From NCBI RefSeq assembly GCF_000614145.1, contig NZ_BAKK01000011.1:1-64000 (forward strand): 64,000 bases of DNA. Reading direction: 5' to 3'. The DNA comes from Bacteroides faecichinchillae JCM 17102 (lineage in GTDB: Bacteria > Bacteroidota > Bacteroidia > Bacteroidales > Bacteroidaceae). The stretch's first letter is position 1. The number at the start of each line of letters is the position of its first letter. The notes under the pieces are model-generated. The model had not been told where the DNA came from. It did no database searches and worked only from the letters and a program-made list of their open reading frames with translations. The position numbers were made by a program, and so were the translations under genes. Of this stretch, positions 3,523-20,982 are shown piece after piece.

Positions 3523-5001
3523 TTAAATTTTAGGCATATCAGGCAATTTCCAGCCATCACGATATGTATGCTTGATCAGTTCAGCAGCAAGCTGTTGTGC
3601 GTTCATTGGTTCAGTCCAGCTCTTGTTAAATGAAGGATGACCGTCATGAATAGTGAAACCATCTTTCGTACAAGTCTTGATTGTTTCATTTTCACCGATG
3701 TTAGTGAAGCGCATATTTTCTCCGTCCCATTCCAATGTCTTGTTCAGGGCTTGCAAACGGATAGCCAATACACCCATAGCAATCATTTCGTTGAATGGAC
3801 CAGCTTCAGAGAAGTCTGATTTAGTCATTACACGGTTAGCTGGACTTTCTTTACAAGCACGTACCCAGTCCATTTCGTGAGAAGTTGTAACACGACGACA
3901 AACTTCCGGAGCTTTAGGTACACGACCTGAAAGTAAGAACGGTTTTTGACCATAGCAACCGCAAATTAATGTATCTTTAGTTCCGTGGAAGATCGTTAAG
4001 CCACCGCCAGGACCCATCAATTCTTTTCCTTGAGGGAAACCTTTCGGACGGTCAGGCATCATACCACCATCATACCAATGAACTTCTACTTCCGGCATTG
4101 CTACTTTAGCCATGTTGTCGCGTGCAGGGAAAATCATTTTTACGTGTTGTGCTTGTGGTGCACATGCATTCAATAATAAAGTAGATGAACCTTCAACACG
4201 AGTCGGATAATTAAGTTTCAAAGCTTTGAATGGTTGATGTAAAATGTGACAAGCCATATCACCTAATGCACCTGTTCCATAATCCCACCATCCACGCCAG
4301 TTCCATGGGTGATAAACTGCATTATACGGGTTCAGTTTAGCAGGTCCGGTAAACAGATCCCAGTTCAATGTGCTAGGAATTTTGTCTTCTTTTTCAGGAG
4401 CATTTAATCCTTGAGGCCAAATAGGACGGTCAGTAGCACATTCTACTTTTGTAACGTCACCAATTTCACCATTCCAGATCCATTCGCACACAAGGTCAGT
4501 ATCTTTAGAAGATGAACCTTGGTTACCCATTTGAGTAACTACTCCTGTAGAAGCAGCCAATTTAGTAAGCAAACGAGATTCATATACAGAGTGTGTCAAT
4601 GGCTTTTGGCAATATACGTGTTTGCCCATTGTCATTGCGTCAGCTGTAATAATAGCATGAGTATGGTCAGCAGTAGCGATGATAACACCATCGATAGATT
4701 TGCCCATTTCATCGTACATTTTACGATAGTCATAGTATTTTTTAGCTTTTGGGAACTCATCAAATACGCCTTTAGCATATTTCCAGTCTACGTCACAGAG
4801 TCCAATAATGTTTTCTGTACCTTTTACTGCATTGATGTTAGCGTGTCCCATACCACCGATACCAACGGCAACAAGATTCATTTTGTCGGATGGGGAAGTG
4901 TATCCATGACTCTTACCCAAAATAGTGCTAGGAGCAATTGTTATACCTGCAAGTGCAGCAGCTCCTGTCTTCAGAAAGTCTCTTCTTGAAATGTTTGACA
5001 T
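3523..5001 (-). CDS. Exported (Tat) Gfo/Idh/MocA oxidoreductase
   Basis: The protein is 492 residues. The N-terminus carries a twin-arginine signal (SRRDFLKTGAAALAG), so it is exported folded with its cofactor. A Rossmann motif (GIGGMGHANI) follows at about residues 47-56. The usual EKP catalytic motif appears as CQKPLTHS, and the conserved C-terminal-domain histidine region is MACHILH. The family uses tightly bound NAD(P) to oxidise sugars. Together with the two exported DUF1080 proteins, the likely role is oxidation of glycosides at C3 in the periplasm. The cytoplasmic paralogue immediately upstream could reduce the released keto-sugar. The substrate cannot be read from sequence. Confidence 0.88.
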   Translation of the reverse strand: MSNISRRDFLKTGAAALAGITIAPSTILGKSHGYTSPSDKMNLVAVGIGGMGHANINAVKGTENIIGLCDVDWKYAKGVFDEFPKAKKYYDYRKMYDEMGKSIDGVIIATADHTHAIITADAMTMGKHVYCQKPLTHSVYESRLLTKLAASTGVVTQMGNQGSSSKDTDLVCEWIWNGEIGDVTKVECATDRPIWPQGLNAPEKEDKIPSTLNWDLFTGPAKLNPYNAVYHPWNWRGWWDYGTGALGDMACHILHQPFKALKLNYPTRVEGSSTLLLNACAPQAQHVKMIFPARDNMAKVAMPEVEVHWYDGGMMPDRPKGFPQGKELMGPGGGLTIFHGTKDTLICGCYGQKPFLLSGRVPKAPEVCRRVTTSHEMDWVRACKESPANRVMTKSDFSEAGPFNEMIAMGVLAIRLQALNKTLEWDGENMRFTNIGENETIKTCTKDGFTIHDGHPSFNKSWTEPMNAQQLAAELIKHTYRDGWKLPDMPKI

Positions 5002-5036
5002 GATTTTCTACATTTAAAGTTGTTTATAAATATAAA

Positions 5037-6116
5037 TTAGCGATTGTTTCTTAGTAGTCCATAACCGTTTTTCATTGTGCGTCTTCTTTCGCGAATCTGT
5101 TCAAGTGTGTCCAGAGTACCGATAGCGGGTAATTCATGTGATTTAGCATCCCGTAAGAATTTCCATGCATATTCGGATGCGATAGCAGAATCGCGTAAAG
5201 TAGGAAGTTGAGGTGATAGTTTACCTTGTTCGATACTGTCAGCGAACAAGTCACACATCACATCTATATTTTTTCCGCCGAATGGTTTTTCTATCCGGAG
5301 TGTTTTGTTAACTCCATGTAAATCAACGACAGCAGTTTTAAAATCGTGAGTCATTCGAACGATACCTTTCGTTCCGATAAGATCGACATAAGAATTGTGT
5401 GTCTGATCTTTTGAGAGCTGGCCATATACAAATCCTTGTGTAATATCGAAAACGATACCATTTTCAAAGGTTCCGTGGCATTGTACCCACCATGGCTCTT
5501 TGTAGCTCCACATATCAATGGCTTGTGCATGCCAGGTTTTGTAGTTACTGCCGGCATACCAGTGTGCTATATCAACATAATGCATTCCACAATCATGGAA
5601 TGAAGGGCCTTCATATTCATGTCCTTCTCCCGGTGCAAGTCCTGGAGTCATGTGGCAGATTCTGATGATTGCCAATTCACCCAGCTCACCTTCTTCAATG
5701 AATTGTTTCATTTGGTGGTGATACCATGAATTGTGAAGATATAAATTAACGGTAGAAAGTACATTTGACTGTTCAGTCATTCTTACGACGTCCCATTCTC
5801 TTTCTACAGTATCAGCAATTGGCTTTTCAGATATGATATGTTTCCCATATTGAATAGCTTTTTCTATTTGTTCTTTTCGGAAGTTTGCCAACGTGCAAAG
5901 TGCTACTACTTGTACACTCTCATCTTTAAATACTAATAACTCATCAGCTACTACTTGTGATTCAGGAGAAAGTTTCTTTGCAAGTTTTCTAGCTTCTGGA
6001 TCTACGTCACAGATGTAAGCTACATCCCATCTTCCACTCTTCTGCATTTCTTGCAGGTAGAAGCCTCCCATTCTGCCAAAGCCTATAAGCCCAACTTTAA
6101 TCCGTGTAGTTCCCAT
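5037..6116 (-). CDS. Cytoplasmic Gfo/Idh/MocA oxidoreductase
   Basis: The protein is 359 residues with no signal peptide. The Rossmann motif GLIGFGRMGGFYL lies at residues 9-21 and the catalytic SEKPIADT motif near residue 99. A typical Gfo/Idh/MocA C-terminal domain follows, with a conserved histidine in the FHDCGMHYVDIAHW region. It is the first gene of the minus-strand operon (35 bp upstream of the Tat-exported paralogue) and has a Bacteroides-type promoter upstream. The probable role is NAD(P)-dependent reduction of a 3-keto-sugar taken up after periplasmic cleavage, or redox recycling. This is inferred from operon context. Confidence 0.87.
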   Translation of the reverse strand: MGTTRIKVGLIGFGRMGGFYLQEMQKSGRWDVAYICDVDPEARKLAKKLSPESQVVADELLVFKDESVQVVALCTLANFRKEQIEKAIQYGKHIISEKPIADTVEREWDVVRMTEQSNVLSTVNLYLHNSWYHHQMKQFIEEGELGELAIIRICHMTPGLAPGEGHEYEGPSFHDCGMHYVDIAHWYAGSNYKTWHAQAIDMWSYKEPWWVQCHGTFENGIVFDITQGFVYGQLSKDQTHNSYVDLIGTKGIVRMTHDFKTAVVDLHGVNKTLRIEKPFGGKNIDVMCDLFADSIEQGKLSPQLPTLRDSAIASEYAWKFLRDAKSHELPAIGTLDTLEQIRERRRTMKNGYGLLRNNR

Positions 6117-10333: not shown

Positions 10334-13300
10334 TTAATCCAGTAAATCTGCCCATTGTTCATTAGTAAATGTGGGTAAAGTATCACTATCTGCAATAAAT
10401 GTTTCTGCTAGTTTTCGTTTCTTATCTTGCAGGTGGAGAATCTTTTCTTCGATACTGTTTTGAGTGATGAAACGGTATGCGATTACTTGTTTGTCTTGAC
10501 CAATGCGATGAGCGCGGGCAATGGCTTGTGCTTCGGCAGCCGGGTTCCACCAAGGGTCAATGATAAATACATAGTCTGCTTGGGTAAGGTTAAGTCCAAC
10601 CCCACCAGCTTTCAAGGAAATGAGAAACGCTTGTACATCCTTTTGATCGGTGAAATGGGCAATTTCAGAAGGACGGTTGTTGGTGGAACCTGTCAATAGG
10701 GCGTATTTCCAGTTCCGTTTTTTGAAAGCTTCAGCTATGATTTCCAGATGTCTGACAAAGGAAGAGAAAATCAGTACTTTATGTCCTTCACTTTGTAAGG
10801 TGTCGAAGGTTTCTATGATTTGTTCCACTTTTCCTGATATTCCGGTGAAATCGGGAAAAACGAGTTGAGGATGGCAAGATAACTGGCGGAGACGCAAGAT
10901 TCCGTTCAGTATACTAAAGGAGTGGAATCTGTCTATATGTTGAGGTTGTTGCAACAATATGTTACGCAAACTATTCTTTTCTTGCTCGTAATAATTATGT
11001 TGTTCTTCAGTCATATCACAGAAGATGGTTTCTTCTGTTAGAGGTGGAAGTTCGGGAGCCACCTCTTTTTTACTTCTTCTTAGGATAAAGGGTGAAGTCA
11101 ATTGTTGTAATCGCCCTTCTATTCGCGTGTTTCCTTGACGGATTGGAGTAATAAATTGTTTTTGGAAAACGTTCTCTTCTCCTAATAAATCCGGTTGGAG
11201 GAAACGGAATTGCGCCCATAAATCTTTGAGTGAGTTTTCGATAGGAGTACCGGTAAGGACTAGCCGATGTTTGCTTTGCAACTGTATGGTCGCCCGAAAA
11301 GTAAGCGAATCACTGTTTTTAATATTTTGGCTTTCATCTAGTACAATATATTCAAAACAGTAGGAACGGAGTGTTTCAATGTTGTTTCGCATCATTCCAT
11401 ACGTCGTAAATATCAGATGAAAACGACTGAAAAATCGTTCCGGATGTTCTTTAGGGATGACTGTTGTACTGTTGTATTCAGTCATTGAAAGCGTGGTGAA
11501 GCGTTTCGCTTCCCTGTGCCAGTTGTGAAGTAAAGAAGTCGGTACAACAATGAGAGTTGCCGGCTTTCGGGGCGCCTGTTTCTTTATCGGACGAGGGTCG
11601 GTTACGACTATATTCTTTTCTCTTATTTCGCGCACATCCGGTAACAATTCATCTTCGTTATCGAAGCCGAATAGAGAGAATTGTCCTGTCGGATCACTCG
11701 TTGGTTGCTGTTTCTCAATAGATGTGGATGAGATGGTGGCTATTTCCTGATGAGTTGTATCCGAAGTCAGTGGCTTATAAATATATTGTAATAAGGTTAG
11801 AGTCTGGAGTGTCTTACCGAGTCCCATGTCATCTGCAAGACATCCTCCGAATCCTTGTTCGTTGAGTTGTACCATCCATGAAAACCCTTTTTGCTGGTAA
11901 GGACGTAGCTGCGCTTTGAGCCTTCCGGCACCTGAATGCCTTTGATCTGAATTTTATTAGGAAACCTTTTTAATCCATTTTCGTCTAAGGCCGACTGTAC
12001 AGCACCGATGAATGCATGCTTTAATCGTATTCCTTTTTCTGTTTGATCCCCCATCTCCAACAGATTGCCATATTTGCTGAACCATTCGTCAGGCAAAAGA
12101 AACATCTGTCCGTTAGGCAGTAGAAATTCTTTTTTTTCTTCAAGAATGTGTTTGCGGAAACGTGAAAAAGGGATGCGCATTGTACCGATGACCACAGTGA
12201 TACGTAATTCGAACCAATCCGGGCCATCGTCGCAATTTTGCTCAATTTGGATTTCATCCAGACAATAATGAGTATTCTTTTTATTATTGGTTAATAAGAA
12301 AGAATGTTTCAACATCTCTCTGTTTTGATGAATCCATTCGGTGATTGTTTTTTCGGGACTATCGGGTGATAGCTTGAAATGGACATCACTGATTTGTTGC
12401 AAACCAGCTTGGGTTAGTAACCGTATTGCTCTCTTTTCAGAAGCACCATGCCGTTGAAAAAAGGCGATTTCACCGGATTCTTTACGGTAAACGATTTTCT
12501 TCATTTCATGGGCAAAATCAGGATTAAATGATTGATTGCCGTAAAGGAAACCGAGTTTTAGCAATTGTTCATCGTAAACTGTATCTTCCAAAGTAAGTAC
12601 TGCTTTACAGTTACGCTTCTCTTCAGTGATATCCAGACCATATGTGGCGATATCGTGATAACGTGCTATTGGTATTACAATATTATCAATATACTTTTCA
12701 ATCTGCGATATATCTGCACTAATTGTTCTCTTTTTTGTAAAAGGTAAAATCCGCGTACTTTCAATATGAGGGAAAAAGTATAGTTCCATACCTAATAGTA
12801 AAGCCGAAGGTGAGGAAGTCAGCACAATAACAGGTTTTTGCTCAGTTAAAGAGAAGGATTGTCCTTTGTAAAAGCATTGCAATTCATATCGGAAAGTTTT
12901 TTCGTCAATATGGAAAGTGAAACGACTTTCGACATCATGTGGGTGAACATGGTAAGCGTGGTGGGCATATAATATTTTACTTCCGGGCGGTTTTTGATAA
13001 AAAAGAAGATTGGCTTTTCTGATTAGTTCCAGCATTTCCTGGAGTTTCTTTTCGATGAATGGGCGGATATTGTTCTTGAATCGGTCCCTATCTTCGGACA
13101 ACTTATGAAGGAAACGTGATACTGTTTCTTCTCGCGAGTAAACACCCATTAGGTACTTTTCTGTATAATGTGAAGCGATGTCAATTGCCTCGCGTTCTGC
13201 GTCAGACATACGGGAAACTGCTTCAGGAGAAGCATGGAATGCTTGTTCTATCAGGCACACAGTTTCATTGTCCTGCCTTTCCGCGATGTACGGTATCAAT

Positions 13301-13368
13301 AACACACCGAGTACGGGATGTTCTGATAAAACGATAATAACTTGTCCGATAGTTGTTTTCTGTTTCAT
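10334..13368 (-). pseudogene. SNF2-family DEAD/DEAH helicase, one frameshift
   Basis: Two overlapping reading frames (13368-11797 and 11875-10334) form one gene. After PEGS the first frame drifts. Adding one base at about 11921-11924 (GGC to GGGC in the sense strand) gives EGLKAQLRPYQQKGFSWM and joins the frames into a protein of 1011 residues. The N-terminal half (about 480 residues) is a Bacteroides-type accessory region. The C-terminal half is the SNF2 motor: ADDMGLGKT (Walker A), LDESQNIKNSD (DExx box), LTGTPIENSL and helicase C motifs GGVGLNLTQAD and ARAHRIGQ. These are ATP-driven DNA translocases. A lone indel in an otherwise intact gene suggests sequence error or recent inactivation. 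Confidence 0.85.
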
Positions 13369-13388
13369 TCTCTTTAGGCTTGAATCAA

Positions 13389-13396
13389 CAAAGATA
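13389..13396 (-). promoter_or_regulatory. -7 box of the SNF2 helicase gene
   Basis: CAAAGATA (TATCTTTG on the coding strand) lies 20 bp before ATG 13368 and only 12 bp from the plus-strand box of the divergent mnmA-like gene. Confidence 0.5.
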
Positions 13397-13408
13397 CGGG
13401 AAAATACT

Positions 13409-13416
13409 TAATTTTG
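13409..13416 (+). promoter_or_regulatory. -7 box of the mnmA paralogue
   Basis: TAATTTTG matches TAnnTTTG and ends 4 bp before ATG 13421, implying a nearly leaderless transcript. Confidence 0.45.
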
Positions 13417-13420
13417 CAGC

Positions 13421-14521
13421 ATGATGGAAGAAAACAAACGTGTGCTGTTAGGTATGAGTGGCGGAACAGATAGTTCTGTCGCTGCAATGCGACTGCTGGA
13501 AGCCGGATATGAGGTGACTGGTGTGACCTTTCGTTTTTATGAACTCAATGATTCTACCGAATATTTGGAGGATGCTCGTAGGTTAGCGGAACGTTTGGGA
13601 ATACAGCATATCACTTATGATGTGCGGGAGATATTTCACCAGCAAATTATTGAATATTTTGTTCAGGAATACATGTTGGGGCATACACCTGTCCCCTGTA
13701 CGTTATGTAACAATCTGCTGAAATGGCCATTACTTGCTAAAATTGCCGATGAAATGGGAATTTTTCATATTGCTACCGGACATTATGTTCGTAAGGTTAA
13801 AAAGGAAAATACCTATTATTTAACTTATGCTGCCGACTCGGATAAGGATCAGACTTTCTTTTTATGGGGATTAAAACAAGATATCCTTCAAAGAATGTTG
13901 TTGCCTATGGGAGATATTACTAAAGTTGAGGCAAGGGCTTTTGCAGCTGAACATGGATTCCGAAAAGTAGCGATGAAAAGGGATAGTATAGGTGTTTGTT
14001 TTTGCCCGATGGATTATAGGAGTTTTTTAAAAGAATGGTTAAGAAGAAATGGTAGTCAATCGCAGGATAGAAATGATCATTTCCAGTTTCATAGTTTAAA
14101 ACGTGGAAAGTTTATCGATGAAAAGGGAAATTTTATTGCATGGCACGAGGGTTATCCTTTTTATACGATTGGGCAACGTAGGGGATTGGGAATTCATCTA
14201 AATCGTCCCGTCTTTGTGAAAGAGATTTTTCCGGAAACGAATGAAGTAGTTCTTTCATCTCTTCAGACTTTGGAAAAAACAGAAATGTTTTTAAAGGATT
14301 GGAATATCGTAAATGAGGAACGTTTGTTGAATAACCATGATGTTATTGTGAAAATACGATATCGTAAACAAGAAAACCATTGTACGGTAACCATTACTTC
14401 TGATAATTTATTGTATATTCATCTTCACGAACCACTAGCGGCTGTTGCACCCGGACAAGCTGCTGCATTCTATAAAGATGGATTGTTATTGGGAGGAGGA
14501 ATAATTGTATCTTCTCGCTGA
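13421..14521 (+). CDS. mnmA: tRNA 2-thiouridylase MnmA paralogue
   Basis: The 366-residue protein belongs to the MnmA family, which puts sulfur on U34 of Lys/Glu/Gln tRNAs using ATP and a persulfide relay. The PP-loop [10 protein letters not shown] sits at residues 13-22. Candidate catalytic cysteines lie in VPCTLCNN (C93/C96) and in [10 protein letters not shown] (C193/C195); the C-terminal beta-barrel includes [12 protein letters not shown]. Both cysteine motifs are doubled and depart from the usual DVLCN and GICFIG, so this looks like one of the divergent extra copies Bacteroides carry rather than the canonical enzyme. It is divergent from the SNF2 gene with a very short gap. Confidence 0.85.
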
Positions 14522-14689
14522 TACCATAAAGTTTGTTTTTATAAAATTTATCTGCAACCTACACAAGTTTGCTTATATATTGTTGATATACAATGTGCTA
14601 ATGGTGTGCAAGATGCTGTTGCAGATGTGTGCAGGATCTTTTATCTTGCACTATAATATATCGTTCAGATTCTGGTTATCCGGTTAAAC

Positions 14690-14822
14690 TAAATAATGCT
14701 AATATTCTGTACGTCAGCTATTAAACTTCTGAGTAATAGTCATTAATACTCTATATAATAACTATTGAGATTCTGCATGATAACTATTAATACTTTATAA
14801 TAATAACTATTAATACACGATA
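14690..14822. repeat. 22-bp periodic AT-rich repeat array
   Basis: About six degenerate units begin near 14690, 14712, 14734, 14756, 14778 and 14801, spaced 22 or 23 bp. The best-conserved core is AACTATTAATACT (units at 14778 and 14801). It runs directly into the dyad array at 14856 within the 551-bp gap between convergent mnmA and GH3 genes. Confidence 0.7.
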
Positions 14823-14855
14823 TCCGATCAATTATAATCACTTGTTTCAGCCTAT

Positions 14856-15003
14856 GAAACTAAAAGTTTCAAGTGCTTGAAACCATTGGTTTCCTTATAT
14901 GAAACATTTAGTTTCAAGCCATGAAACAAATAGTTCCAATAGTTGAAACATTTAGTTTCGAAGCTTGAAACTGAAAGTATCATCTATTGGAACTTACTAT
15001 AAC
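14856..15003. repeat. Array of GAAAC-N5-GTTTC dyads, 22-bp period
   Basis: Dyads lie at 14856-14870, 14879-14893, 14901-14915, 14923-14937, 14945-14959 and 14967-14981, with a decayed seventh at 14989-15003. Start-to-start spacing is 23, 22, 22, 22, 22 and 22 bp. The 5-base centres vary (taaaa, cattg, attta, aaata, attta, tgaaa) while the arms stay the same apart from single changes in units 4 and 6. The spacing keeps every dyad on nearly the same DNA face. Confidence 0.85.
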
Positions 15004-15072
15004 TGTGAATATTATTAGTGGTTTGTCTTAATAAGCACAATGGCTCTTTTCGATATATCTTGTTATTAGTTG

Positions 15073-16583
15073 CTATTCGTTATTGAGAGGTAACATTTGC
15101 TCGATATATTCTCGCGTATTACTTAATCGGGGCACTTTATGCTGTCCTCCCAATTTCCCTTTTTGTGCCAACCAATCATGAAACAGTCCCGGACGAGCCG
15201 TGATTACCTCTAAAGGTTGCAAAGCAATATCTTTCCAGCGTTTTGCCTCATAGTCAGAGTTTACTTCTTTCAATGTTGCATCCAAAACAGCAGCGAATTT
15301 TTCTACCGAATCCGGCATTTTAGCAAATTCAATCAACCATTGATGACGACATTTAGCATTCTCATCCATAAAAACCGGAGCTGCTGAATATTCGCTCACT
15401 TGGGCTCCTGTTGCAGCACAAGCCTTAGCTAACCCTTTTTCAGCATTATCAACGATCAATTCTTCTCCAAAAGCATTGATAAAATGTTTAGTCCGTCCTG
15501 TGATGACAAATTTATATGGATTCTTGTTGGTAAACTTCACTGTATCACCAATCATATATCGCCATAAACCGCAGGAAGTAGAAATAACCAATGCATAATT
15601 TTTGTTGAGTTCCACCTCTTCCAGACAATATACACGTGGGTTTTCCTTATCGACGTCTTCCAGTGGAATAAACTCATAGAAAATTCCGTAATCAATCATC
15701 AATAGCATAGCCGGGTCGGAAAGATCGTTTTGTGTACCGAAATATCCTTCAGAAGCATTATATGTTTCTACATAGTGCATTTTCGGTGAGTGAATGACTT
15801 GCTTATATTGTTCGCGATAAGGAGTAAAAGATACTCCGCCATGGAAGAATACCTCCAAGTTAGGCCATACCTCTTCTAATGTCTGTTTTCCTGTTTTCTC
15901 GAGAATACGTTTAATCAGTACTAGCATCCACGAGGGTACACCCGATAAACTGGTCACATTTGCCGGAATTGTACTATTAGCAATCGCTTCAATCTTAGTC
16001 TCCCATTCGCTCATCAATGCGATTTTCTTGCTGGGAACACGAATAAAATTAATCAGCGGATTAACATTTTGAATAAGAATAGCCGACAGATCTCCTACTA
16101 AACTATGATTGGAATTCAAATTTGGGCTGTGGCTACCACCCAAAATCAATCCTTTTCCGGAAAAGAAGTGACTATTCGGTTGATACGGAAATAAAGTGCA
16201 GCAGCATCTTTCCCTCCTCTGTAGTGAATATCCTCCAACGCCTCTTGACTGACAGGAAGAAATTTACTTTTATCATTTGTGGTACCGGATGATTTGGCAA
16301 ACCAACGGATTTCCGAAGGCCAAAGCAGGTTTTGCTCTCCTGCGCGTAAACGTTCTACATACGGTTTGATTTCTTCGTAAGTCTGTATTGGAATACGCTT
16401 TCTGAAATCTTCATAACTGCGGATAGAGGAATAATCATATTTCTTTCCCCATTCTGTTTGAGCAGCTTGGGTTATCAAACGGTTCAGCACCCGGTGCTGT
16501 ATATCGCTAGCTTGAGTAGCGTAAAGATCTATTTGTTTTAAACGGGAGTCGAAAGTTTTACTTATGATTTTTGTAATATTCAT
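15073..16583 (-). pseudogene. GH3-family acyl-adenylase/amido synthetase, one frameshift
   Basis: Two frames (16583-16146 and 16149-15073) belong to one gene. The first ends INRIVTSFPEKD. Adding one A at 16174-16176 gives INRNSHFFSGKGLILGGS and a protein of 503 residues, the usual length of the bacterial GH3 auxin-responsive-promoter family. Recognisable pieces are WFAKSSGTTNDKSKFLP (phosphate-binding loop), EGYFGTQ, YRYMIGDTVKFT-like LWRYMIGDTVKFTN and the C-terminal subdomain with ITGRTKHFINAFGEEL. Such enzymes adenylate carboxylic acids and form amides; substrates in Bacteroides are unknown. The rest of the frame is intact, so the indel may be a read error. Confidence 0.85.
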
Positions 16584-16613
16584 TTCTGCTTTAACATATA
16601 ATGTTTAGTCGTG

Positions 16614-16621
16614 CAAAAGTA
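16614..16621 (-). promoter_or_regulatory. -7 box of the GH3-family gene
   Basis: CAAAAGTA (TACTTTTG on the coding strand) lies about 30 bp before ATG 16583. Confidence 0.45.
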
Positions 16622-16719
16622 ACCTTATTTATCTTTTTTTTCTATCTTTACGACGGAAATAATCGTTAAAATTAACGTGTTTCATATAATTCCCGAATTA
16701 TTGACTAAAAAAAACGACA

Positions 16720-17730
16720 ATGAGAATTGGAATCCTGACTTCTGGAGGAGACTGTCCCGGTATAAATGCTACGATTCGTGGTGTTTGCAAAACAGCAATT
16801 AATTATTATGGAATGGAAGTAATAGGTATTCATAGTGGTTTTCAAGGGCTCCTAACAAAAGATGTAGAGTCTTTTAACGATAAGTCGTTGTCCGGACTGC
16901 TCAATCTCGGCGGAACTATGTTGGGTACTTCTCGTGAAAAACCTTTTAAGAAAGGAGGAGTCGTTTCGGATGTTGATAAACCCGGACTTATTTTACATAA
17001 TATTCAGGAAATGGGCTTGGATTGCGTGGTTTGTATCGGAGGAAATGGAACTCAGAAAACAGCAGCTAAATTTGCAGCTTTGGGCGTAAATATCGTATCT
17101 GTGCCCAAAACAATAGACAACGATATCTGGGGGACGGATATTTCTTTTGGATTCGACTCGGCAGTAAGCATTGCTACCGATGCAATCGACCGTCTGCATT
17201 CTACCGCAAGTTCGCATAAAAGAGTGATGGTAATTGAGGTGATGGGGCATAAAGCCGGATGGATTGCTTTATATTCGGGTATGGCAGGTGGTGGTGATGT
17301 GATTCTGGTGCCTGAAATTCCTTATAATATTAAAACCATTGGAAACACCATTCTGGAAAGATTGAAAAAAGGAAAGCCTTATTCTATTGTTGTGGTGGCG
17401 GAAGGTATTCGGACTGACGGACGTAAACGTGCTGCTGAGTTTATTGCTCAGGAAATAGAATATGAGACAGGCATCGAAACTCGTGAAACTGTACTTGGAT
17501 ATATCCAGCGGGGCGGTTCACCTACTCCTTTTGACCGTAATCTTTCTACCCGGATGGGAGGTCATGCTACGGAACTTATTGCTAATGGGCAATTTGGACG
17601 TATGGTGTCTTTACAGGGGAACGAGATTTCGTCCATTCCTCTTGAAGAAGTGGCAGGCAAACTGAAATTAGTTACTGAGGATCACGATCTGGTGATTCAG
17701 GGTCGTCGCATGGGGATTTGCTTTGGATAG
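16720..17730 (+). CDS. pfkA: 6-phosphofructokinase
   Basis: The 336-residue cytoplasmic enzyme phosphorylates fructose-6-phosphate in glycolysis. GGDCPGINA is at residues 9-17, PKTIDND at 129-135 with the catalytic Asp, and EVMGHKAGWIAL follows. The phosphoryl-donor signature is mixed: GGNG at 107-110 has the glycine typical of ATP enzymes but Asn where E. coli PfkA has Asp, while Lys130 (PKTIDND) is typical of pyrophosphate enzymes. Donor use (ATP or PPi) is therefore uncertain. The 3' end overlaps the convergent rnc gene by 59 bp. Confidence 0.92.
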   Translation: MRIGILTSGGDCPGINATIRGVCKTAINYYGMEVIGIHSGFQGLLTKDVESFNDKSLSGLLNLGGTMLGTSREKPFKKGGVVSDVDKPGLILHNIQEMGLDCVVCIGGNGTQKTAAKFAALGVNIVSVPKTIDNDIWGTDISFGFDSAVSIATDAIDRLHSTASSHKRVMVIEVMGHKAGWIALYSGMAGGGDVILVPEIPYNIKTIGNTILERLKKGKPYSIVVVAEGIRTDGRKRAAEFIAQEIEYETGIETRETVLGYIQRGGSPTPFDRNLSTRMGGHATELIANGQFGRMVSLQGNEISSIPLEEVAGKLKLVTEDHDLVIQGRRMGICFG

Positions 17731-20894: not shown

Positions 20895-20982
20895 TTTCCT
20901 TTAAAAGAAACGAAGTGTTTCTCGGTGTGCGACGGGTCGTTTCTCGGTGTGCGACGGGTCGTTGCTTTTAAAGAAACGTTTC
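20895..20982. repeat. 22-bp tandem repeat with GAAAC/GTTTC dyads
   Basis: A 22-bp unit beginning GTTTCTCGGTGTGCG occurs twice without change (20917-20938 and 20939-20960). It is flanked by related A-rich segments (CTTTAAAAGAAACG before, CTTTTAAAGAAACG after). The left junction forms GAAAC-gaagt-GTTTC (20907-20921) and the right end the gapless dyad GAAACGTTTC (20973-20982). It sits in the 206-bp gap between convergent purN and pdxB. Confidence 0.85.

Follow-up and report, generated by a model that had tools for sequence, protein, structure and literature searches.

The array of 22-bp dyads between mnmA and a GH3-family gene of Bacteroides faecichinchillae JCM 17102 is one of many dispersed copies of a composite sequence, and related copies stand beside genes for a BT4734-type primase fused to a VapE-type helicase. 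Probably the feature derives from a BT4734-VapE primase-helicase element as a MITE-like form that has no gene, and in it the array would be an iteron-like cis site. The window in which it was found is the whole stretch of DNA analyzed, 64,000 nucleotides long; coordinates of its features are given in Table 1.

Table 1. Features in and around the array gap of the window.
Feature	Position	Strand	Description
mnmA	13421-14521	+	5' neighbor of the array gap
Module B	14544-14660	+	inverted short words ATCTGCAACC / GTGTGCAAGATGCTGTTGCAGAT / ATCTTGCACT; outer limits approximate
Module C	14690-14816	.	AT-rich 22-bp array, ATAACTATTAATAC type; TRF period 22 at 14742-14816, lag-22 identity 0.62
Module A	14844-14971	.	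GAAAC array: 12 alternating half-sites GTTTC-N7/8-GAAAC-N5; chain parser
Module A, decayed end	14977-14993	.	GTATC 14977-14981 and GGAAC 14989-14993, in register
GH3-family gene, OlsH model	15073-16583	-	two frames; each piece scores below the OlsH model cut-off
Possible further relic	20907-20963	.	exact dyad, then the 22-bp unit GTTTCTCGGTGTGCGACGGGTC in 2.1 perfect copies

The two genes flanking the gap, mnmA and the GH3-family/OlsH gene, are convergent. Between them, the original prediction had placed six GAAAC-N5-GTTTC dyads and a decayed seventh. We found GAAAC at all six starts (14856, 14879, 14901, 14923, 14945 and 14967); the dyad is exact at 14856, 14879, 14901 and 14945, while the right arm carries a mismatch at 14923 (GTTCC) and at 14967 (GTATC). 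The seventh unit is indeed there, as a lone GGAAC at 14989, and one more in-register half-site, the GTTTC at 14844, had been overlooked. The same decayed units are present in L151 and L165 as well. Since the gap from GAAAC to GTTTC is 5 nt and that from GTTTC to GAAAC is 7 or 8 nt, half-sites follow one another every ~11 bp and the array has a period of 22-23 bp. As a DNA-level array of helically phased half-sites, it agrees with the proposal that all dyads present one face. The AT-rich stretch at 14690-14822, which was said to keep the same period, does so (best lag 22, 62% identity over 66 positions), as does the stretch at 14840-15003 (best lag 22, 67%); TRF agrees in both cases.

The window has five exact dyads (the fifth is at 20907) compared to 0.10 expected, and none of 100 shuffles reached five. 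For the chain of 12 half-sites, none of 60 dinucleotide shuffles of the whole window gave even 4 half-sites (3 exact). CRISPR arrays have repeats of ~23-50 bp separated by unique spacers of similar length and lie near cas genes. Here, the half-sites have 5 bp, and the centers, of 5 or 7-8 nt, recur across loci and genomes; as had been argued, this is no CRISPR layout. The repeat at 20907-20963, located between convergent ORFs, includes the recurrent spacer word TCGGTGT in its 22-bp unit and is possibly a second relic of the array family. Two observations concern the neighboring genes. The OlsH/GH3 gene is broken by a frameshift or an assembly error into a frame at 15073-16149, which matches model positions 160-504, and an overlapping one at 16146-16583, which matches positions 25-131. 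At 10334-13368, two minus-strand ORFs (513 and 523 aa) overlap; judged by eye, they are two halves of a single SNF2-type protein in different frames.

The original prediction regarded the array as a cooperatively bound operator or a nucleoid-protein site. As a stand-alone operator of the mnmA/GH3 gap it does not hold up, as the array is one of many dispersed copies and a part of a composite; a single operator for mnmA or OlsH is thereby ruled out. The suggested genome-wide search for GAAACN5GTTTC found 46 dyads in the own genome compared to 12 in the reversed control, with 37 of the 46 clustered, and the chains parsed around them made 17 arrays. The three-half-site pattern GAAACN5GTTTCN7GAAAC occurred 24 times in forward orientation in the own genome and never in the control. 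It was present in 16 of 61 genomes (own included), with counts within the same genus ranging from high to zero; the reversed control of this search was not zero in every genome, with 3 and 4 versus 11 and 12 matches in genome G015 and single matches in G002, G016 and G033. Among the 35 genomes reached via named loci, 23 had the pattern and it was absent from both B. fragilis genomes and from P. vulgatus. Forward counts, each with a control of 0, were 54 in B. cellulosilyticus and in B. sp. 519, 45 in B. xylanisolvens, 41 in B. faecis and in B. bouchesdurhonensis, and 40 in B. faecalis. A DNA search of a plasmid collection gave no match.

The same spacer words turned up at different loci and in different species, in both orientations; for example, among 360 seven-base spacers AAGGCAT/ATGCCTT was seen 41 times and ACACCGA/TCGGTGT 20 times. 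We also observed two identical arrays in B. faecalis (L166 and L167, at 239 and 320 kb of contig C1), the flanks of which both match one own-genome locus (L016) over ~2 kb, probably a segmental duplication. With respect to neighboring ORFs, the solitary arrays were in convergent, tandem and divergent gaps in 25, 51 and 10 cases, versus 2, 21 and 15 in control gaps; 86 of 100 arrays could be classed, the six gene-linked ones, those inside ORFs and those not flanked by ORFs on the two sides being omitted. This preference for convergent and avoidance of divergent gaps fits tolerated insertion and a host role alike. A regular chromosomal spacing, as a nucleoid or segregation signal might have, was tried and rejected: for 20 sites on the largest B. 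bouchesdurhonensis contig the coefficient of variation of the gaps was 0.71 compared to 0.94 for random placement, and 9.7% of random sets were as even or more so, which is unconvincing.

The array is not the whole of the repeated unit. When alignments of 60-600 columns were considered, array neighborhoods aligned over ~500-600 bp in eight copies of B. faecis and seven copies of B. sp. 519. The aligned composite consists of array A and module B, made of short words in both orientations, together with the AT-rich 22-bp array C in B. faecis; the copies of B. sp. 519 are bounded by inverted repeats, most of them starting CTCCTCCCAGAAG. In the window, the order is B (inverted words), C (AT-rich array), A (GAAAC array). 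Module C is present in L039 and L040 and absent as a block from L038/L151. Positions 14544-14700 are 76.5% identical over 162 columns to a second own-genome copy, L017, also with a GAAAC array. The B word CTATCACCTATCACC, with at most one mismatch, had 19 sites in the own genome and none in the control; where inspected, it was followed by a GAAAC-type array, by a different 22-bp array of TATATAAACG type, or by neither. Several copies that differ in their flanks share a sharp outer end of this module B, CTCCTCCTAACAAAAAACATC.

Some other repeats were noticed on the way. Long near-perfect palindromes lie in or beside decayed arrays in L040 (the gap after mnmA; for example, around GTTTCATAGTGTGAAAC), in L017 at 1873-2388 and in L037 near ~409. 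Other short-period repeats (CGTTCATCGTTTATC; CATATATATTCACCATACATGAC; GTCAGCTAACC) occupy the gap after mnmA in L048 and L049 (B. fragilis), L051 (B. pyogenes) and L055, and perhaps are analogous elements with other words.

One copy of B with its array, on contig C143, adjoins a BT4734-VapE gene that is split over two ORFs and followed by an inverted B. Genes of this kind encode a protein of ~700 aa in which a BT4734-type primase is joined to a VapE-type helicase. With its gene, the element reads B, 22-bp dyad array, gene, inverted B' and spans ~2.7 kb in the measured copy. Domains PF08800, PF05272 and DUF3874 were found in all five proteins checked, and the PADLOC PrimPol model matched four of four with values from 2.6e-34 to 1.4e-38. 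A family search with PF08800 gave 50 matches, of which 13 were from the own genome and 37 from four other genomes. Upstream of 23 PF08800 genes, direct reading found a 22-bp palindromic array before most; the words were varied, namely GAAAC, CACGTACGTGAACC, TACACCCGGGTGTA, GGCACANTTGTGCC and TATATAAACG.

For counting, we took a match of at least 135 bits as a high-scoring BT4734 gene, and a best lag of 21-23 bp with a score of at least 0.58 as an array. This one test placed an array before 23 of the 34 high-scoring genes, 1 of the 25 low-scoring genes and 11 of 340 control ORFs, with some of the 34 genes orthologous and hence not independent; among the controls, the top lag was 21-23 in 50 of 340 at any score, and the 11 that pass both limits are candidate arrays. 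The scored loci were 29 of 30 fetched from 50 matches (L355, at a contig end, was omitted) and 30 fetched from 33 matches. In the first five genomes, 18 of 23 genes of at least 135 bits had the array and none of six below. In nine further genomes, chosen afterwards, it was found at 5 of 11 high-scoring genes, with other words and in two cases in P. vulgatus, and at 1 of 19 low-scoring genes, in B. fragilis. The share therefore went from 18/23 to 5/11 in fresh genomes, and by this test 11 of the 34 high-scoring genes are without an array. Twenty regions picked after the upstream reading, leaving out four seen to have no array (L352, L354, L356 and L358), had a best lag of 21-23 bp in all 20 and a score of at least 0.58 in 18; as these were selected after inspection, 23/34 versus 1/25 is the fairer figure.

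In the 20 picked regions, an inverted B' was seen by eye 3' of the gene in 15, with a remnant in L367; it was not seen in L365 (a contig end), L369, L372, L376 and L378. On descriptive averages, the upstream region and B' had 35.5 8-mers in common within an element (17 elements) compared to 15.2 between elements (266 pairs). At the level of ORF lists, the 20 regions showed no satellite gene set in common. In a protein search of plasmids and phages, the best-matching place of a record had less than 60% identity for 59 of 60 plasmid and 260 of 262 phage records. A B. finegoldii record labeled as a plasmid (H1/L417), with metabolic gene annotation, has a 22-bp array of another word upstream of the gene; an unannotated faecal fragment labeled Bacteriophage sp. 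(L418) has a GAAAC array ~620 bp upstream of it. IMG/VR gave three loci, one of which (L419) showed no array in the 550 bp scanned. Two further observations were made around these elements. A protein of ~145 aa with a CFN..C motif is encoded just outside L361, L368, L375, L378 and L164, its 3' end towards the element; the L375 copy had no match in NCBIfam. In L369, a serine-recombinase-like ORF (judged by eye; 4077-5840 in reverse-complement coordinates) begins at the point of truncation of the BT4734-VapE gene, as might be seen after the insertion of another element.

How do the gene-less copies relate to these? The gap between mnmA and OlsH in the window has neither a primase-helicase ORF nor a B', so that the window copy is a derivative and not a complete element. 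It still has the 22-bp dyad array with module B beside it, and its B is kin to that of a gene-bearing own copy: positions 14600-14651 are 90.6% identical over 53 columns to the inverted B' on contig C125, which lies 3' of the BT4734-VapE gene there (E 7e-17, from the pairwise comparison of 485 with 165 bases). The locus on contig C142 offers a direct comparison. Its order in the own genome is array, gene (two ORFs), B', small gene; at the orthologous locus, B. faecalis has array and gene, and B. bouchesdurhonensis goes from the array to the small gene with no BT4734-VapE gene, retaining the outer end of B', in flanks 93.6-97.6% identical across species. Gene-bearing and gene-less forms therefore share one locus, the gene being present in two species and missing in one, and loss rather than gain is suggested because the outer B' end remains. 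The own copies on C142 and C143, each split over two ORFs, may be dead. L398 has the form B-array-B', while the own orthologous locus, L304, is without B'.

We recognized no target-site duplication at the examined copies, and so mobility of the element is inferred from copy number and distribution. No circular, extrachromosomal or excised form was seen. For the gene-bearing TATCACC element, both close relatives keep it, so that they offer no empty site. In L400, the left end is sharp (CCTCCTCCTAAC) and lies within sequence that, in two relatives, runs on as uninterrupted coding DNA and reads by eye like a sensor kinase; its right side is unrelated sequence, and this is thus no clean insertion.

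The evolution of the half-sites bears on what the array does. When the same gap was compared across species, B. bouchesdurhonensis and B. faecalis were found to keep the array at the orthologous place, with arm differences at 0 of 60 positions in each and spacer differences at 9 and 12 of 68. The array is therefore not missing elsewhere, an outcome that the original prediction had named as a refutation. Over 15 orthologous pairs, 18 of 556 arm, 105 of 605 spacer and 580 of 7,990 flank positions differed, consistent with the earlier remark that arms are conserved while centers vary. The arms were more conserved than the flanks (p 1.4e-4), with some ascertainment, as loci were chosen by exact GAAAC matches and the arm counts partly favor own-genome arms; the spacers diverged more than the flanks (odds ratio 2.7). 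These are 15 of 17 pairs, L028/L178 being dropped for lack of a parsed chain and L017/L158 having no array columns, and the flanks are partly coding. The commonest half-site change was GGAAC (57 of 771 in five pooled genomes, B. sp. 519 excluded), which appeared on either arm with the partner unmatched; GGAAC was seen 35 and 22 times on the two arms, yet the double change GTTCC/GGAAC occurred in one dyad. A DNA half-site G(A/G)AAC is expected to vary in this way. AAAAC is frequent in B. sp. 519, where matched GTTTT/AAAAC arms are seen in 13 dyads; these could come from a DNA site, a base-paired stem or homogenized units. Taken together, slow arms, fast spacers and uncompensated GGAAC favor a protein-binding DNA site.

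A transcribed hairpin array, acting as a terminator or 3' UTR element, would suit the over-representation of convergent positions and the matched arms of B. sp. 519, which are an exception to the general want of compensatory arm changes. The statement that 5-bp stems are too weak for RNA hairpins was too simple, since the whole array folds at -40.4 kcal/mol on the plus and -49.1 on the minus strand (z -6.6 and -9.0). Alternating arms alone, however, give such a fold. Re-ordering the spacer words left the predicted hairpin no weaker (mean z -0.11 in 92 of 100 arrays, those with fewer than three N5 words being dropped), and no Rfam family matched 13000-17000 at gathering score. With GGAAC arms uncompensated and word order irrelevant, we rejected the RNA hairpin array and regard it as very improbable.

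Unit number shifts by multiples of ~22 bp between orthologues, as would be expected of a selfish tandem repeat maintained by slippage and conversion with no bound protein. The fast spacers agree with such a neutral minisatellite, and so does an intra-array block that is inverted between species, with breakpoints at half-sites (L033 4044-4149 versus L163 1982-2153); site-specific recombination or template switching would give the same inversion. Arms evolving more slowly than the surrounding DNA are not explained in this way, nor is the recurrence of a 22-bp period with unrelated words upstream of one gene family, and we hold a neutral origin to be improbable.

Which protein would read the sites was approached by comparing words with proteins. 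The array word does not track the protein tree (GAAAC occurs in four separate branches); words were assigned by eye and the short frames L363 and L378 left out. For example, the L362 and L373 proteins are 89% identical and have different array words, with the B word alike by eye. Over 14 elements, three near-identical orthologues being dropped, Mantel tests of protein identity gave r 0.38 with B' sharing (1 of 2,000 permutations) and r 0.24 with array sharing (39 of 2,000). As the protein correlates more with B' than with the array, B is the better candidate for the primase-helicase's own site, and A may be the site of a partner or host factor. We also noted that, in L359, L364, L370 and L372, an HU-family-like gene and the BT4734-VapE gene diverge from an array region lying between them; the HU-family-like gene of L359 is above and that of L372 below the TIGR01201 cut-off, the other two being assigned by likeness. 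An HU-family protein could be the array-binding partner.

These data also speak to a reading in which the arrays are host sites, with a Bacteroides nucleoid or regulatory protein on phased GRAAC half-sites in 3' and convergent gaps, and the elements merely carrying them or inserting beside them. A nucleoid-protein site is possible. Solitary arrays far outnumber gene-linked ones: a search with one query protein found the gene within 1.5 kb of 6 of 100 parsed GAAAC arrays, and near none of the 12 arrays of B. cellulosilyticus or the 18 of B. bouchesdurhonensis. Their arms are conserved with no gene nearby, the array word varies in part independently of the protein, some BT4734-VapE genes have a divergent HU-family gene upstream, and the gap orientations agree as well. 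Yet the B modules that accompany the arrays match those around the gene, and a fixed host site leaves unexplained the quite different 22-bp words that other subfamilies, and Phocaeicola too, have ahead of the gene. We judge the host-site reading unlikely, though it keeps real weight beside the derivative of a primase-helicase element that we prefer.

Several known systems resemble the element in part. MITEs are dispersed, short, non-coding intergenic copies, and the arrays are of this kind, with 17 in the own genome and 2 of 100 parsed arrays inside an ORF of at least 110 aa; inverted ends were seen in the B. sp. 519 copies and L398, with no B' seen in the window copy, and the gene-bearing relative encodes a primase-helicase where the parent of a MITE would encode a transposase. 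REP/BIME units of enterobacteria are dispersed palindromes at gene 3' ends and between convergent genes; they are alike in dispersal and position and, by their general description, differ in unit length and sequence. BrickBuilt, a minisatellite-bearing MITE of Porphyromonas gingivalis with 19 copies (PMC4596501), belongs to the same bacterial order and is likewise dispersed and intergenic, with a tandem 23-nt repeat of varying unit number between a leader and a tail. Its consensus, AGAYCATARTATCCTCTCRTRTG, has no dyad half-sites, its terminal repeats are of IS5 type (GAGACC), and the passages of PMC4596501 drawn on here mention no primase-helicase; the ends of the present copies begin CTCCTCC and the related gene is BT4734-VapE. 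As neither the published unit nor the IS5-type ends were found, we rejected identity with BrickBuilt.

The iteron origins of R6K and pPS10 have 22-bp iterons with phase-dependent cooperative Rep binding (PMC4980987). The gene-bearing relatives (23/34) share with the iterons described there tandem sites of 22 bp, within the 17-22 bp of such repeats, on one helical face beside an initiator-type gene, and by this analogy the array of the gene-less window copy may be an iteron-like replication site. Unlike iterons, the arrays are chromosomal, each unit is a dyad, words differ by subfamily and most copies are gene-less. In the P4 ori/crr and the SaPI origin, short inverted words surround AT-rich DNA, and the word is protein-specific. 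Both P4 and SaPI are phage-satellite replicons with a helicase and a primase, which in P4 are combined in a single replication protein (PMC7145576). A primase-helicase with inverted words around AT-rich DNA is a likeness that fits module B; the lack of an apparent satellite gene set is a difference. BT4734-like proteins are archaeo-eukaryotic primases and VirE/VapE is a predicted mobile-element helicase (PF08800, PF05272; PMC5862659). The gene of the gene-bearing form belongs to this BT4734-like/VapE family, for which the passages of PMC5862659 consulted describe no arrays, inverted modules or gene-less copies. In open-licence literature, judged from listings, no article was recognizable as being on these arrays, which does not imply absence from print.

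Under the preferred reading, the parent would be a chromosomal, recurrent gene for a BT4734-type (archaeo-eukaryotic) primase and VapE-type helicase with its flanking modules, and the window copy would have kept B, C and A, having no gene or B'. The primase-helicase itself would read B; the exchangeable word of A would be read by a partner or host protein. Protein would assemble cooperatively on the arrays on a single DNA face, most likely for the start or regulation of element replication by the primase-helicase, and dispersal would go by copying, with the gene occasionally lost. A wider proposal, which we put forward tentatively and think possible at best, is a chromosomal mobile element of Bacteroidaceae that lacks a transposase or integrase and consists of a lone primase-helicase gene, inverted modules and a 22-bp replication-type array. 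It would seed gene-less "orphan origins", with rapid word change acting as a lineage-specific addressing code and half-sites under selection.

We know of no established role for the BT4734/VapE genes scattered through these genomes. By tying the arrays to them, the genes gain a cis element and the repeats gain a likely parent, and a testable case arises of a replicase-based element that leaves origin-like copies. The words could act as element-specific tags in strain comparison. If the arrays bind protein, tens of clustered sites could shape local chromosome structure, expression and replication.
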